From NCBI GenBank assembly GCA_022482625.1, contig JAKVOU010000001.1:124001-188000 (forward strand): 64,000 bases of DNA. Reading direction: 5' to 3'. This DNA comes from Spirochaetia bacterium. Its GTDB lineage: Bacteria; Spirochaetota; Spirochaetia; Sphaerochaetales; Sphaerochaetaceae. This document shows, piece after piece, positions 27,347-46,923 of this stretch (position 1 is the stretch's first letter; every line of letters starts with the position of its first letter). The notes beneath the pieces were generated by a model. That model made no database searches and had not been told where the DNA came from. It worked only from the letters and a program-made list of their open reading frames with translations. A program made the translations under genes and the position numbers.

Positions 27347-28392
27347 GTTTGCCCGGCATGGGTGTTATCTAGACGGTGAAAGTCCGTTGCAGGTTGCGAT
27401 ACAGGAGGAAGAAAACAGACCTGAACTGCTAGCCAGAGGCAAGGGCGTACCAGCGATGGTGGGTCTGAAGGAAGCCCGAGGCAGGAGTGCAGATGAAGTG
27501 GCTGCATGGGATGAAAGACAACATCCTTGACCGGGGAGGTCTTCGGGGCGACCTAGGCTGCAATGATGCCGTTTGACGGTCGTAGACAAACGAACCCGAA
27601 GAAGTCAGCAGAGGCCATAGCAGTGCAGGGAGAGTGCATGAAGGGCCGAACAATCAGATCTTTCTGAAGGAGGAAAGGCCATCATGCAGAAGACAGACAC
27701 CCTGAGAGGGACTCAGCCACGGCATGGGGGGAGGGATACCATGAGGGAAGGAAATCCGACAGTACCAAACACGGAGCTTTGCGAGAGGATGCTCTGTCCC
27801 GACAACATTGGACTAGCCGTGCAGAACGTGAAACGGAACAATGGCAGTGCAGGGGTCGACGGCATGGAGGTCAGTGAAATCGACGGCCGCATGCGGGAGG
27901 ACTGGGCACGGATCCGGGGACGGATCCTGGCAAGGAAGTACAAGCCTCAGCCGGTCAGGAGGGTCCATCAAAGGATACCTTGAGGACAGAACAGTCCCGA
28001 TCCACAGGAGAATCCGCCAATGTCTATGGAAGCAATGGAAGAAGCCTGGGAGAAGGGAGGAGATGCTGAAGAAGCACTGTCCATCTCAGAACAGGTGGAG
28101 GCTGAACAACTTCCATGCCTATTCCAGCAACAGGCACTGGTATTTCAGCAAGGCAGTGCTCAATGCATTCATTCCGAAATCGACGATAATCCAAGGGTAC
28201 GGATTGCTTGACATCGAAGCCTATTACAGGCAGGCGCATGCCAGGAGAATGGAGACAGACAGACGTGTATGTGAAAGTCGCCAGCTAACGCTGGAATTCG
28301 GATTTGATTGAACCGCCATATACCAGACCGGTACGTACGGTGGTGTGAGAGGAAAGGTTCTCCGGTTATCCGGAGAACCCGACCTAATCGAT
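27347..28392 (+). mobile_element. Group IIC intron with a deleted reverse transcriptase
   Basis: The 5' end GTTTGCCCGGCATGGGTG resembles the class IIC consensus GTGTGCCCGGCATGGGTG, and GGTGAAAGTCC of domain I follows. At the 3' side, GAACCGCC...GTACGTACGGTGG (28309-28345) is a domain V-like hairpin. Next comes a domain VI-like hairpin (GGTTCTCC, TTAT-containing loop, GGAGAACC), ending near CTAATCGAT at 28392. The ribozyme ends look complete, but the reading frame in domain IV has lost its core, so mobility would need help in trans. Borders are estimated to within a few bases. Confidence 0.85.
27684..28311 (+). pseudogene. Group II intron reverse transcriptase/maturase remnant (internal deletion)
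   Basis: The first frame (to 27983) encodes the start of a IIC-type reverse transcriptase: NTELCERMLCPDNIGLAV, NGSAGVDGMEV, RKYKPQPVRRV. It then jumps, in a different frame, to the C-terminal thumb/maturase part: RRIRQCLWKQWKKPGRREEM, HWYFSKAVLNAF and YGLLDIEAYY. The usual central RT blocks, including the YADD catalytic motif, are absent. About 200 residues compared with about 420 in intact relatives points to a deletion of roughly 600-700 bp near 27965. Confidence 0.85.
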
Positions 28393-41388: not shown

Positions 41389-41461
41389 TCGGGATGAAAG
41401 GACTCGAACCTTCGATATCTTGCTCCCAAAGCAAGCGCCATAGCCGCTAGGCGACATCCCG
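41389..41461 (-). tRNA. tRNA-Pro(TGG)
   Basis: The reverse strand gives acceptor CGGGATG pairing with CATCCCG, discriminator A and no encoded CCA. The anticodon stem-loop is CTTGC-TTTGGGA-GCAAG with anticodon TGG, and the T loop contains GGTTCGAGTCC. All stems close. Confidence 0.95.
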
Positions 41462-43109: not shown

Positions 43110-43170
43110 CACACTTGGAACTTTTGTTTGATGTTTTGTTCATTATGTTGAAACTGAGGGAGAGATGTTG

Positions 43171-45558
43171 ATGCGACAGATTCAGCTACATGCGATTGAA
43201 GGATCTATGATACTTAGCCAGTCAGGCAAGGAAAAACTTCAGAAACTGTATGGACTTGCTGATGGGGAGCGCTTGGTCTTGGTCATTTCTTCCCAACAGG
43301 AAAAATTGCTTTCAATACGTTCTTTGGTCGAAGGTGCCAAGGAACATGACGAAAGGCTATGGTCCAATATTGAAAAGGGTCAGCTTTTCTGGCTGGGACT
43401 CGTCGACCAACTGCTCCAGGGTGAAGGCCGGAAACAGACGGCAGATTTAGTCAAGAAAGGCTTTACCCATCTTGAGGAACTGCTTCGCAGTGCATGGCTT
43501 GTCGGTGACATATCATCGGGGACGTTCGGTTATCTTGACCATGTCGTCGGTTCGTGGATAGCTAAGATGGCTGGCTTCATGTTGGCAGAAGTCTGTGATG
43601 ATGTTGTCCTGTGCGAGATGGACAAGGCGCTGACCATGCCGGCTGAGGATGTGCCTTCCGTCTTGGTCGTTTCCAGTCCTTGCCATGAAGGATGGCAGGC
43701 CTTTGATGCGGAAGCTGTGGCTTCTTCGCTCTGCATCCAGTATGATGCCCATACCATGACCTGCTGGAATTCCATATCCCTTGTCAGGACTGCGGACCTG
43801 AATGAAGTGCCAAGTGCACAGGTCATCCCCCTGCTTTCCTACAGTGAGGCAACTGAACTCTCATATTTCGGTTCCAGTGTCATTCATCCGAAAGCATTGC
43901 TTCCGGCCATTTCCAAGGGATATGAAGTAAATCTCCGCTGCTGGAATGATTTTGAGGAACCTGGTACCGTTGTTACTCCTAATGAAGATCCCAAGGGAAG
44001 CGGTACGATCAAAGGGTTTTCCGTCATTCATAATACTTCGCTGGTAAATATCGAAGGTGCAGGATTGAGCGGGGTCATCGGATTTTCTGCCAGGCTTTTT
44101 GCCGCGATGACCCAGGCAGGTATTTCTGTTATCCTGTACTCTCAGGCGTCCAGTGAATACAGCATCTGTCTTGCTGTACCGTCACAACAAGCCGAAAAGG
44201 CTGTGGAAACAGCAAAGAGCTGTTTCCATGAAGAATTGGAAGACAACAGGGTCCATGCCATTGAAGCAAAGGATGGGCTTGCCATCATTGCCGCAGTAGG
44301 GAACCAGATGGCAGGGAAATCAGGTGTATCCGGCTTGTTCTTCTCGTCTTTGGGCAAGGCTGGCGTCAATGTCATGGCTATTGCACAGGGATCAAGCGAA
44401 CGCAATATCAGTGCCGTGATAAAAGGCAAGGACTGCACGAAAGCCCTGAGAGGTCTGCATGCTTCTTTTTTCCTTTCCCGTCAGGCACTGTCTGTCGGTC
44501 TGATAGGTCCCGGCAATATCGGAGGGACTTTGTTGGACCAGATTGCCAAGGAGAAAGTCCGGTTGAACGAACAGTTTGGCTTGGATATCAGGATCCGTGC
44601 CATTGCCAATAGCCGGAAGATGTTGCTTGATGACGAAGGGATTGACCTTGACAACTGGAGACAGGAATTTGAAGAGCGCAGTGTCGACTGCGACCTGACG
44701 GCCTTTGAAACCCATGTCAGTGTGACCTACTTTCCCCATAGTGCAATCATTGATTGCAGCTCAAGCAGTTTCCTTGCAGGCAGGTATGTTGCATGGCTGA
44801 AGATGGGCATGCATGTCATTACCCCGAACAAAAAGGCAGGAACGGCCGATTATGCCTATTACCGGCAACTTTTTGATACCTGCAGGGATACGGGCAGGCG
44901 CTTCCTTTATGAAACTACTGTGGGCGCAGGACTTCCTGTGCTAGGTACGCTGAAGGACTTGGTGCAGACCGGTGACAACATAAGGAAAATTGAGGGCATT
45001 GTTTCCGGTACGCTTGCCTGGCTTTTCAATAATTTTGATGGTAGCAAACCATTCAGTGCTTTGGTCAGGGAGGCCAAGCAACTGGGCTATACGGAGCCTG
45101 ATCCCCGTGATGATTTGTCCGGTATGGATGTGGCACGTAAAACGGTCATCCTAGCCAGGGAATTGGGATATGATGTGGAAGTGTCCCAGGTCCCGATCGA
45201 AAGCCTTGTGCCGAAGGAGCTTGCGGCTCTTCCTGCTGACTTGTTCCTTTCCAGGCTTGATGAACTTGATGGACCGATGCTGGAACGTTTCCGACAGGCT
45301 GGAAATGAAGGAAAGCGGCTATGCTATGTAGGACAGGTAGATGCCGGTGGCAGCTGCAGTGTTGCCCTGAAGGCGTATCCTGCCGACCACCCGTTCTCCC
45401 AGGCCAGCGGAACGGATAATGTCATCTGCTTTACTACTGATCGATATCTGGATCAACCGCTGGTAATCAAGGGACCTGGAGCGGGAAGGGAAGTGACTGC
45501 CGGAGGTGTTTTCTCTGACATCCTCAGGCTTTCTGCCTATCTTGGTGCCAGGATCTGA
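43171..45558 (+). CDS. thrA: Bifunctional ThrA-type homoserine dehydrogenase with a degenerate aspartate kinase domain
   Basis: 795 residues from the ATG at 43171, the better-spaced of two starts behind GAGGGAG. The ThrA layout is complete: kinase-like region (1-250), two ACT domains (VIGFSARLFAAMTQAGISV, FFSSLGKAGVNVMAIAQGSS), then homoserine dehydrogenase (about 440-795) with VGLIGPGNIGG, HVITPNKKAG, VSGTLAWLFN and TEPDPRDDLSG. The kinase part lacks the KFGGTS motif at the N-terminus, the GRNGSDYSA-type block and the TDVDGVYT block, keeping only SYSEATELSYFGSSVIHPKA. It probably makes homoserine with NAD(P)H and senses threonine, while another enzyme supplies aspartyl phosphate. An operon with thrC is likely. 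Confidence 0.88.
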   Translation: MRQIQLHAIEGSMILSQSGKEKLQKLYGLADGERLVLVISSQQEKLLSIRSLVEGAKEHDERLWSNIEKGQLFWLGLVDQLLQGEGRKQTADLVKKGFTHLEELLRSAWLVGDISSGTFGYLDHVVGSWIAKMAGFMLAEVCDDVVLCEMDKALTMPAEDVPSVLVVSSPCHEGWQAFDAEAVASSLCIQYDAHTMTCWNSISLVRTADLNEVPSAQVIPLLSYSEATELSYFGSSVIHPKALLPAISKGYEVNLRCWNDFEEPGTVVTPNEDPKGSGTIKGFSVIHNTSLVNIEGAGLSGVIGFSARLFAAMTQAGISVILYSQASSEYSICLAVPSQQAEKAVETAKSCFHEELEDNRVHAIEAKDGLAIIAAVGNQMAGKSGVSGLFFSSLGKAGVNVMAIAQGSSERNISAVIKGKDCTKALRGLHASFFLSRQALSVGLIGPGNIGGTLLDQIAKEKVRLNEQFGLDIRIRAIANSRKMLLDDEGIDLDNWRQEFEERSVDCDLTAFETHVSVTYFPHSAIIDCSSSSFLAGRYVAWLKMGMHVITPNKKAGTADYAYYRQLFDTCRDTGRRFLYETTVGAGLPVLGTLKDLVQTGDNIRKIEGIVSGTLAWLFNNFDGSKPFSALVREAKQLGYTEPDPRDDLSGMDVARKTVILARELGYDVEVSQVPIESLVPKELAALPADLFLSRLDELDGPMLERFRQAGNEGKRLCYVGQVDAGGSCSVALKAYPADHPFSQASGTDNVICFTTDRYLDQPLVIKGPGAGREVTAGGVFSDILRLSAYLGARI

Positions 45559-45651: not shown

Positions 45652-46923
45652 ATGAAATTTGTATCAACTAGAAGATTATCAAAGCCTCTGAGTGCAAGTG
45701 AGGCTATTCTCAAAGGCCTTGCTGATGATGGTGGTCTGTATGTGCCTGAGCAGTTTCCTTCCCTTGTGCACCTTAATACAGGGGCAATTTCTTCCTATCC
45801 GGAACTTGCCTTTGAAGTACTTGCACCGTTTTTTGAAGGAGATGTGCTCAAGAGCAATGATTTGGCTGAAATCTGTGTGGATGCCTTCAACTTTCCTGTA
45901 CCGTTGGTGCCGACCGGAGACAAGTCCTGCATCTTGGAACTGTTCCATGGACCAACGGCAGCCTTCAAGGATTTCGGTGCCCGGTTCCTGGCTTTTACGA
46001 TGGAAAAGCTTCTGGAGAAGCAACCGCGTAAGCTTACTATCCTGGTAGCTACCAGCGGCGATACCGGTGGAGCCGTGGCCGCGGCTTTTCATGGGAGGAA
46101 GGGCATTGACGTAAAGGTACTGTATCCGAAGGGAAGAGTCAGTGCCCGCCAGCAGAAACAGCTGACTGTCTGGGGAGACAACGTTCAGGCGTATGAAGTC
46201 GACGGTACCTTCGACGATTGCCAGAAAATGGTCAAGTCTGCTTTCATGGACAAGGAACTGAGTGCAAAGTATGGGCTTTCAAGTGCCAATTCCATTAATT
46301 TGGGTAGATTGTTGCCACAGACCATCTACTATATCTATGCCGCTTATCTTTTCAGATCCATGTTTTCTACCAATCCGACATTCATCATCCCTAGCGGAAA
46401 CGTCGGCAACAGTTGCGGAGCTTATTGGGCCTTTACCTGCGGAGTACCGATTGACAGGATCGTACTTGCCGTCAATGCAAACAAGACCATTCCGGATTAC
46501 CTTGCGACTGGCAAGTATGCACCAAGAAAAAGCATAGCAACGCTGGCCAATGCCATGGATGTGGGAGCTCCCAGCAACATGGAACGGTTGCAGGACCTTT
46601 ATCCTGACATAGAGACCTTCAGGAGCTTGGTAAGTGCCTGGTCGGTCGATGATGACCAGATAAGGAAAACGATCAAGGAAACCTATGATGAATCAGGTTA
46701 CATCCTTTGCCCGCACACTGCCTGTGCCGAACGGGTGAGGCGGGATCATTTGAAGGATGCTGCTGCCATTGTTGTTTCAACGGCACATCCTGCCAAGTTT
46801 GATACTATTGTCGAACCGTTGATCGGCAAGACAGTAGAGGTGCCTCAGAACCTGGCAAAACTGCTGGACAAGGAGAGCCATTTTATCTCTGTCGGGACTG
46901 ATTATCACCAATTGTTTGAGTAA
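45652..46923 (+). CDS. thrC: Threonine synthase
   Basis: 423 residues. The N-terminal MKFVSTR start, FHGPTAAFKDFGARFL with the PLP Lys, VATSGDTGGAVAAAF and PSGNVGNSCGAYWAF (phosphate loop) are class-defining. It converts O-phosphohomoserine to threonine. It lies 93 bp after thrA and is followed by a strong terminator; thrB is not in the window. Confidence 0.95.
   Translation: MKFVSTRRLSKPLSASEAILKGLADDGGLYVPEQFPSLVHLNTGAISSYPELAFEVLAPFFEGDVLKSNDLAEICVDAFNFPVPLVPTGDKSCILELFHGPTAAFKDFGARFLAFTMEKLLEKQPRKLTILVATSGDTGGAVAAAFHGRKGIDVKVLYPKGRVSARQQKQLTVWGDNVQAYEVDGTFDDCQKMVKSAFMDKELSAKYGLSSANSINLGRLLPQTIYYIYAAYLFRSMFSTNPTFIIPSGNVGNSCGAYWAFTCGVPIDRIVLAVNANKTIPDYLATGKYAPRKSIATLANAMDVGAPSNMERLQDLYPDIETFRSLVSAWSVDDDQIRKTIKETYDESGYILCPHTACAERVRRDHLKDAAAIVVSTAHPAKFDTIVEPLIGKTVEVPQNLAKLLDKESHFISVGTDYHQLFE

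Follow-up and report, generated by a model that had tools for sequence, protein, structure and literature searches.

The protein encoded by the pseudo-ThrA gene of a Spirochaetia bacterium (Sphaerochaetaceae) carries a homoserine dehydrogenase (HSDH) preceded by two ACT domains and by an aspartate kinase (AK) domain that has lost its catalytic motifs. This pseudokinase has probably been kept as a scaffold and threonine-feedback module for the dehydrogenase after a single loss of kinase chemistry, a reading to which we give a probability of about 0.78. The gene lies in a stretch of 64,000 nucleotides (the window; GenBank assembly GCA_022482625.1, contig JAKVOU010000001.1, positions 124,001 to 188,000), and its features are listed in Table 1. 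The open reading frame is uninterrupted up to the stop at 45558, and the start is the ATG at 43171 or the in-frame one at 43165, 6 bases upstream.

Table 1. Features of the pseudo-ThrA gene and its downstream neighbour, in window coordinates.
Feature	Coordinates	Strand	Basis
Pseudo-ThrA gene (putatively dead AK + two ACT + HSDH, 795 aa)	43171..45558	+	ORF, Pfam, NCBIfam
N-half (residues 1-175) of the putatively dead AK domain, without KFGG and RGE motifs	43171..43695	+	alignment, block pLDDT 83-97
HAIEG replacing LKFGG (catalytic Lys / glycine motif)	43189..43203	+	alignment to E. coli ThrA
C-half (residues 176-275) of the putatively dead AK domain, without GRNGSD and TDVDG motifs	43696..43995	+	alignment, model
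Glu181, aligned with Asp208 of E. coli ThrA	43711..43713	+	aligned rows
LSYSEATELSYFG helix joining AK and ACT parts, common to dead and intact proteins	43834..43872	+	alignment
Two ACT domains (residues 276-435)	43996..44475	+	Pfam, structural alignment to 6mx1
ACT1 effector loop SQASSEYSI	44140..44166	+	alignment
ACT2 effector loop IAQGSSERNIS	44380..44412	+	alignment
HSDH part; NAD-binding, TPNKKA, TVGAGLP and GYTEPDPRDDLSGMDVARK blocks intact	44476..45558	+	Pfam, alignment
thrC (threonine synthase), directly 3' of the pseudo-ThrA gene	45652..46923	+	adjacency kept in relatives

Pfam and structural alignment place the AK, ACT, ACT and HSDH parts in one chain, in the order found in ThrA. Pfam recognizes two ACT stretches, the NAD-binding HSDH domain and the full HSDH catalytic domain, and its AA_kinase match is limited to the last third of that profile (positions 148–227 of 234; protein residues 175–250). 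The NCBIfam ThrA equivalog PRK09436 scores 768.2 bits against a cut-off of 726, with a match beginning at model position 212 of 819; the aspartate kinase model TIGR00657 reaches 166.4 bits, below its cut-off of 208.7, with its best stretch at model positions 200–441. E. coli ThrA (aspartokinase I-homoserine dehydrogenase I) has the domain order, linker helix, ACT loops and HSDH blocks of pseudo-ThrA, but it also has the kinase motifs, all of which are lost in pseudo-ThrA. In the alignment of the two proteins, KFGGTS is replaced by AIEGSM, CRGEKMS by HVVGSWI, GRNGSDYSA by QAFDAEAVA and TDVDGVYTCDPR by NSISLVRTADLN; SYQEAMELSYFG is retained as SYSEATELSYFG, and the SYxEAxELSYFG helix is retained in both pseudo-ThrA and its relatives. 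The original prediction, made from the sequence of this gene, was that the KFGGTS, GRNGSDYSA and TDVDG-type blocks were missing and that the SYxEAxELxYFG segment and both ACT domains had been kept, and it is borne out on each point by the alignment and by Pfam.

The aligned relatives comprise 40 rows with a dead kinase domain and 17 with an intact one. Among the dead rows, the residue of E. coli ThrA is kept at K5 in three, at R204 in three, at D228 in five and at G7, E127 and D208 in none, whereas each of these six residues is kept in 16 or 17 of the intact rows; E127 and D208 are both present in 17/17 intact rows and both lost in 40/40 dead rows. Excerpts of a study of E. coli LysC describe Glu119 and Arg198 as holding the amino and carboxylate groups of the substrate (PMC5481828), and E127 and R204 of E. 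coli ThrA are their equivalents, as matched by motif. A search of the genome for another lysC, which had been proposed as a check, found one, encoding a protein of 435 aa with intact motifs and with its C-terminal part kept. The suggestion of a dead kinase half is, thus, strongly supported by the loss of catalytic residues in all 40 relatives and the presence of this separate LysC. It is scarcely credible that the domain is still a kinase, acting on a different substrate or with relocated catalytic residues: the fold is retained and D236 (the Asp of the ADP motif) survives in 31 of the 40 dead rows, but the catalytic Lys, the glycine G7, the substrate Glu and the SD-motif Asp are gone, the remnant of the nucleotide-lobe stretch is modelled with low confidence, and the substitutes at E127, R204, D228 and D230 differ among relatives.

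Misalignment or a frameshift was rejected as the origin of the missing motifs by the clean reading frame, a graded bridge through sister families and the fold match. In hhalign comparisons with intact N-halves, the N-halves of the sister families align with an E value of 7e-21 over 202 columns, and those of the dead family f1 with an E value of 1.5e-9 over 159 columns. Misalignment is unlikely because the sister families bridge the intact and dead N-halves and because the predicted structure can be aligned over its whole length with those of aspartokinases. By fold and ancestry, the N-terminal domain is an AK, and its catalytic motifs are gone.

The AlphaFold model has a mean pLDDT of 84.8 for residues 1–435 and of 81.6 for the full chain; blocks of the N-half reach 83–97, and a stretch at about residues 201–220 is of low confidence (55–59). 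The best structural match to residues 4–435 is the threonine-bound AK of Methanocaldococcus jannaschii (3c1n; Z 31.6, 426 residues, rmsd 4.1, 27% identity; also 3c1m and 2hmf), with which other aspartokinases, lying within 1 of its Z score, are tied. The M. jannaschii enzyme is a separate, ligand-binding and threonine-sensitive kinase, whereas pseudo-ThrA has an HSDH attached and is without the active-site motifs. UMP kinases and NAG kinases, which have the amino-acid-kinase fold, match the predicted structure with Z scores of 16–17, and the ACT part matches the ThrA regulatory domain 6mx1 with a Z score of 20.3 (153 residues, rmsd 2.1, 40% identity). The structural alignments used 15 of 16 loci, L072 being left out. 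In the predicted structure, the amino-acid-kinase fold is retained.

Decay in a single genome was rejected on the finding of the same state in 40/40 aligned relatives, which come from five families of its class and all lack both E127 and D208. Some match to the protein, mostly full length and with about 49–61% identity, is found in 118 of 119 genomes of the family, and there is a match in 138 of 139 genomes of the order (partly the same genomes as in the family count); some genera with smaller genomes have separate AK and HSDH matches only. A search of plasmids gave only matches below 60% identity. The phylogeny was built on ACT and HSDH columns alone, so the kinase trait cannot shape it. In a quick tree of 57 rows, every dead row falls on one branch (SH-aLRT 97), and in a careful tree of 54 rows the dead clade has a support of 100/97, with one change in 200/200 bootstrap trees. 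Three rows with long branches (L046–L048) were kept out of the careful tree; in the quick tree they lie within the dead clade. Three cut proteins (L111, L116 and L136; 684, 618 and 222 aa) and similar loci of the family (L017–L019, L021, L023, L024, L026–L035, L037 and L039) were excluded. The sister of the dead clade is L121, a protein from another family with intact motifs, and its genome (G142) has one aspartokinase match, without a second. Since the dead rows form one clade, the sequences make a single loss of the kinase most likely. Families f22 and f25 retain fragments of the motifs, such as KFDD and xxDG..ADP, f3 and f17 retain fewer and f1 almost none, a gradient that reads, at the sequence level, as stepwise erosion following one loss. 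On this comparison, the dead kinase dates far back and is shared by the whole clade, which the sequence of a single gene could not reveal to the original prediction.

Constraint on the domain was estimated from 42 full-length loci of the family, 27 of 861 pairs being kept (overall pS 0.05–0.45). Median dN/dS was 0.099 for the N-half, 0.047 for the C-half, 0.032 for the ACT part and 0.039 for HSDH, and the median identity to 15 named relatives rises along the chain, from 32% in the N-half through 49% and 64% to 68% in HSDH. Evolution is faster in the dead N-half than in the remaining protein; by these measures, the dead domain is far from neutral, though less constrained than the catalytic part. 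New residues have also become fixed: the D208 column holds Glu in 36/40 dead rows, among the 34 dead rows of full length, 97% have the newly conserved Trp64 and Trp109, and the conserved helical residues of the dead N-half are E61, W64, F98, E102, L105 and W109. The domain might instead be a passive remnant, slowly eroding for want of a job and kept since a clean deletion before the ACT domains is rare or destabilizing. The faster evolution of the N-half, the graded loss of motifs from f22/f25 through f3/f17 to f1 and the shortened domains of genera g10, g14 and g15 (ORFs of 653–749 aa) would fit such a remnant, but it appears unlikely given a median dN/dS of no more than about 0.1 in every domain, the Glu and Trp residues newly conserved across five families, the well-modelled N-half blocks and the full length of the protein in 34 of the 40 dead rows. 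The shortening in g10, g14 and g15 implies that the domain is partly dispensable in some lineages, and this, together with the degradation of one ACT loop in g14 and g10, leaves the slow-remnant reading some room; these features and the faster N-half count against a retained scaffold.

The remainder of the protein should, by its sequence, work. The ACT1 (SQASSEYSI) and ACT2 (AIAQGSSERNIS) loops agree with the E. coli ThrA blocks, and their Gln, Ser and Glu columns are kept in 34–38 of the 40 dead rows; we take the Gln residues to be equivalent to the threonine-binding Gln of other AK-HSDHs. The Lys and Asp columns of HSDH are kept in 40/40 dead rows. The original prediction went further, proposing that the N-terminal half has become a pure allosteric module for HSDH. 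The support for a retained regulatory module is indirect and comes from purifying selection, intact ACT effector loops and the conserved connecting helix. According to the scaffold and feedback reading, the kinase chemistry of ThrA would have been lost once, in the common ancestor of the Sphaerochaeta family and four sister families, and the kinase domain would then have survived as a pseudokinase with structural and regulatory roles. Threonine would bind the ACT pair, the scaffold formed by the pseudo-AK and ACT parts would change conformation, and this change would slow HSDH at the branch point. Aspartate phosphorylation would be unaffected by pseudo-ThrA, the separate LysC performing this step.

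The genome has one PF00742 match; no HSDH besides pseudo-ThrA was found there, and the idea of another copy relieving the gene of its function was rejected. Of 32 genomes with a dead ThrA, 31 also encode a separate AK, as do 11 of 16 with an intact one (Fisher p 0.012, with relatedness ignored), these 48 genomes having been hand-picked from those found in searches. The counter-example is G057, a genome 95% complete with a dead ThrA, in which a separate AK was not found; G016, with the gene in two fragments at the ends of contigs, and G031, with the gene split between two frames, were counted as having one. The two frames of the G031 lysC (L139, on C52; ORFs of 324 and 114 aa) result either from an error in sequencing or from a genuine frameshift. 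In g14 and g15, the separate LysC (L140, L141, L142, L143 and L144) lacks ACT domains and has a tail of ~50–80 residues past the kinase domain; the genomes with this ACT-less LysC also have shortened pseudo-ThrA N-domains.

AK and ACT domains are dimerizing modules, and pseudo-AK could form hetero-oligomers with the separate LysC, relaying threonine feedback in trans; the pseudo-AK/ACT part would then be a threonine sensor shared by its own HSDH and LysC. The near-constant presence of a separate AK beside dead ThrA is consistent with such a partnership, as is the loss of ACT domains from LysC in g14 and g15, where feedback on LysC would need another source. We nevertheless consider it very improbable, as the contact between LysC and pseudo-ThrA is hypothetical, the LysC encoded in the window's genome has retained its C-terminal part, and the pseudo-AK domains of g14 and g15 are among the most shortened, a poor fit for a LysC partner. 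If it were true, the first step of the pathway in g14 and g15 would still be controlled in trans by a dead paralogue.

The pseudo-ThrA gene is preceded by an endonuclease III gene. The model for canonical ThrB (TIGR00191) reached its cut-off in none of seven genomes (G000:C1:1341828-1342031 and six others) although thrA and thrC are present in the window, so a homoserine kinase of another kind is likely. A scan of the window with Rfam at gathering thresholds gave three matches, of which only a tRNA at 41389–41461 lies near the gene; known families of leader RNAs and riboswitches are not represented there. A group-II-D1D4-1 intron match lies at 27570–27646 on the + strand (49 bits against a gathering threshold of 35; E 8.4e-06).

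A comparable arrangement is known from N-acetylglutamate synthase (NAGS; ArgA and vertebrate-like NAGS), in which a kinase-fold regulatory domain also precedes a second enzyme and, according to excerpts of two studies, the acetyltransferase owes its architecture and its control by arginine to the amino-acid-kinase domain (PMC4490483, PMC5146650). The partner in NAGS is an acetyltransferase, whereas Pfam identifies that of pseudo-ThrA as HSDH, so the likeness lies in the working only. In NAGS, which is not known to have ACT domains, the effector arginine binds the kinase-fold domain itself. A study that both papers cite reportedly restored ancestral kinase activity in the amino-acid-kinase domain of P. 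aeruginosa ArgA. Monofunctional HSDHs, among which we place PDB entries 6dzs and 3mtj as having a C-terminal ACT domain, are also controlled at the branch point through ACT domain(s); unlike in pseudo-ThrA, the ACT domain follows HSDH and no kinase-fold domain is known. In the open-licence PMC literature, no earlier description of a ThrA with a dead kinase half was found by title or abstract, and the terms spirochaet-, degenerat-, inactive and lost are all absent from the accessible part of a study of AK-HSDH fusion evolution (PMC1885841).

PRK09436, named 'bifunctional aspartate kinase/homoserine dehydrogenase I', matches all 16 proteins of alignment A1 (P0001 and the 15 named relatives) with E values of 1e-30 or better. 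Because its score for pseudo-ThrA lies above the cut-off, annotation can be expected to credit the protein wrongly with kinase activity, and a false second aspartokinase would enter metabolic models of Sphaerochaeta and its relatives. For ThrA, a bifunctional allosteric enzyme familiar from textbooks, it is natural to ask to what extent threonine control of the dehydrogenase depends on the kinase domain. Beside NAGS, pseudo-ThrA is a further case in which an amino-acid-kinase domain has probably become a regulator, and the families form an uncoupling series in which an intact, half-eroded, dead or shortened kinase domain stands before the same dehydrogenase.
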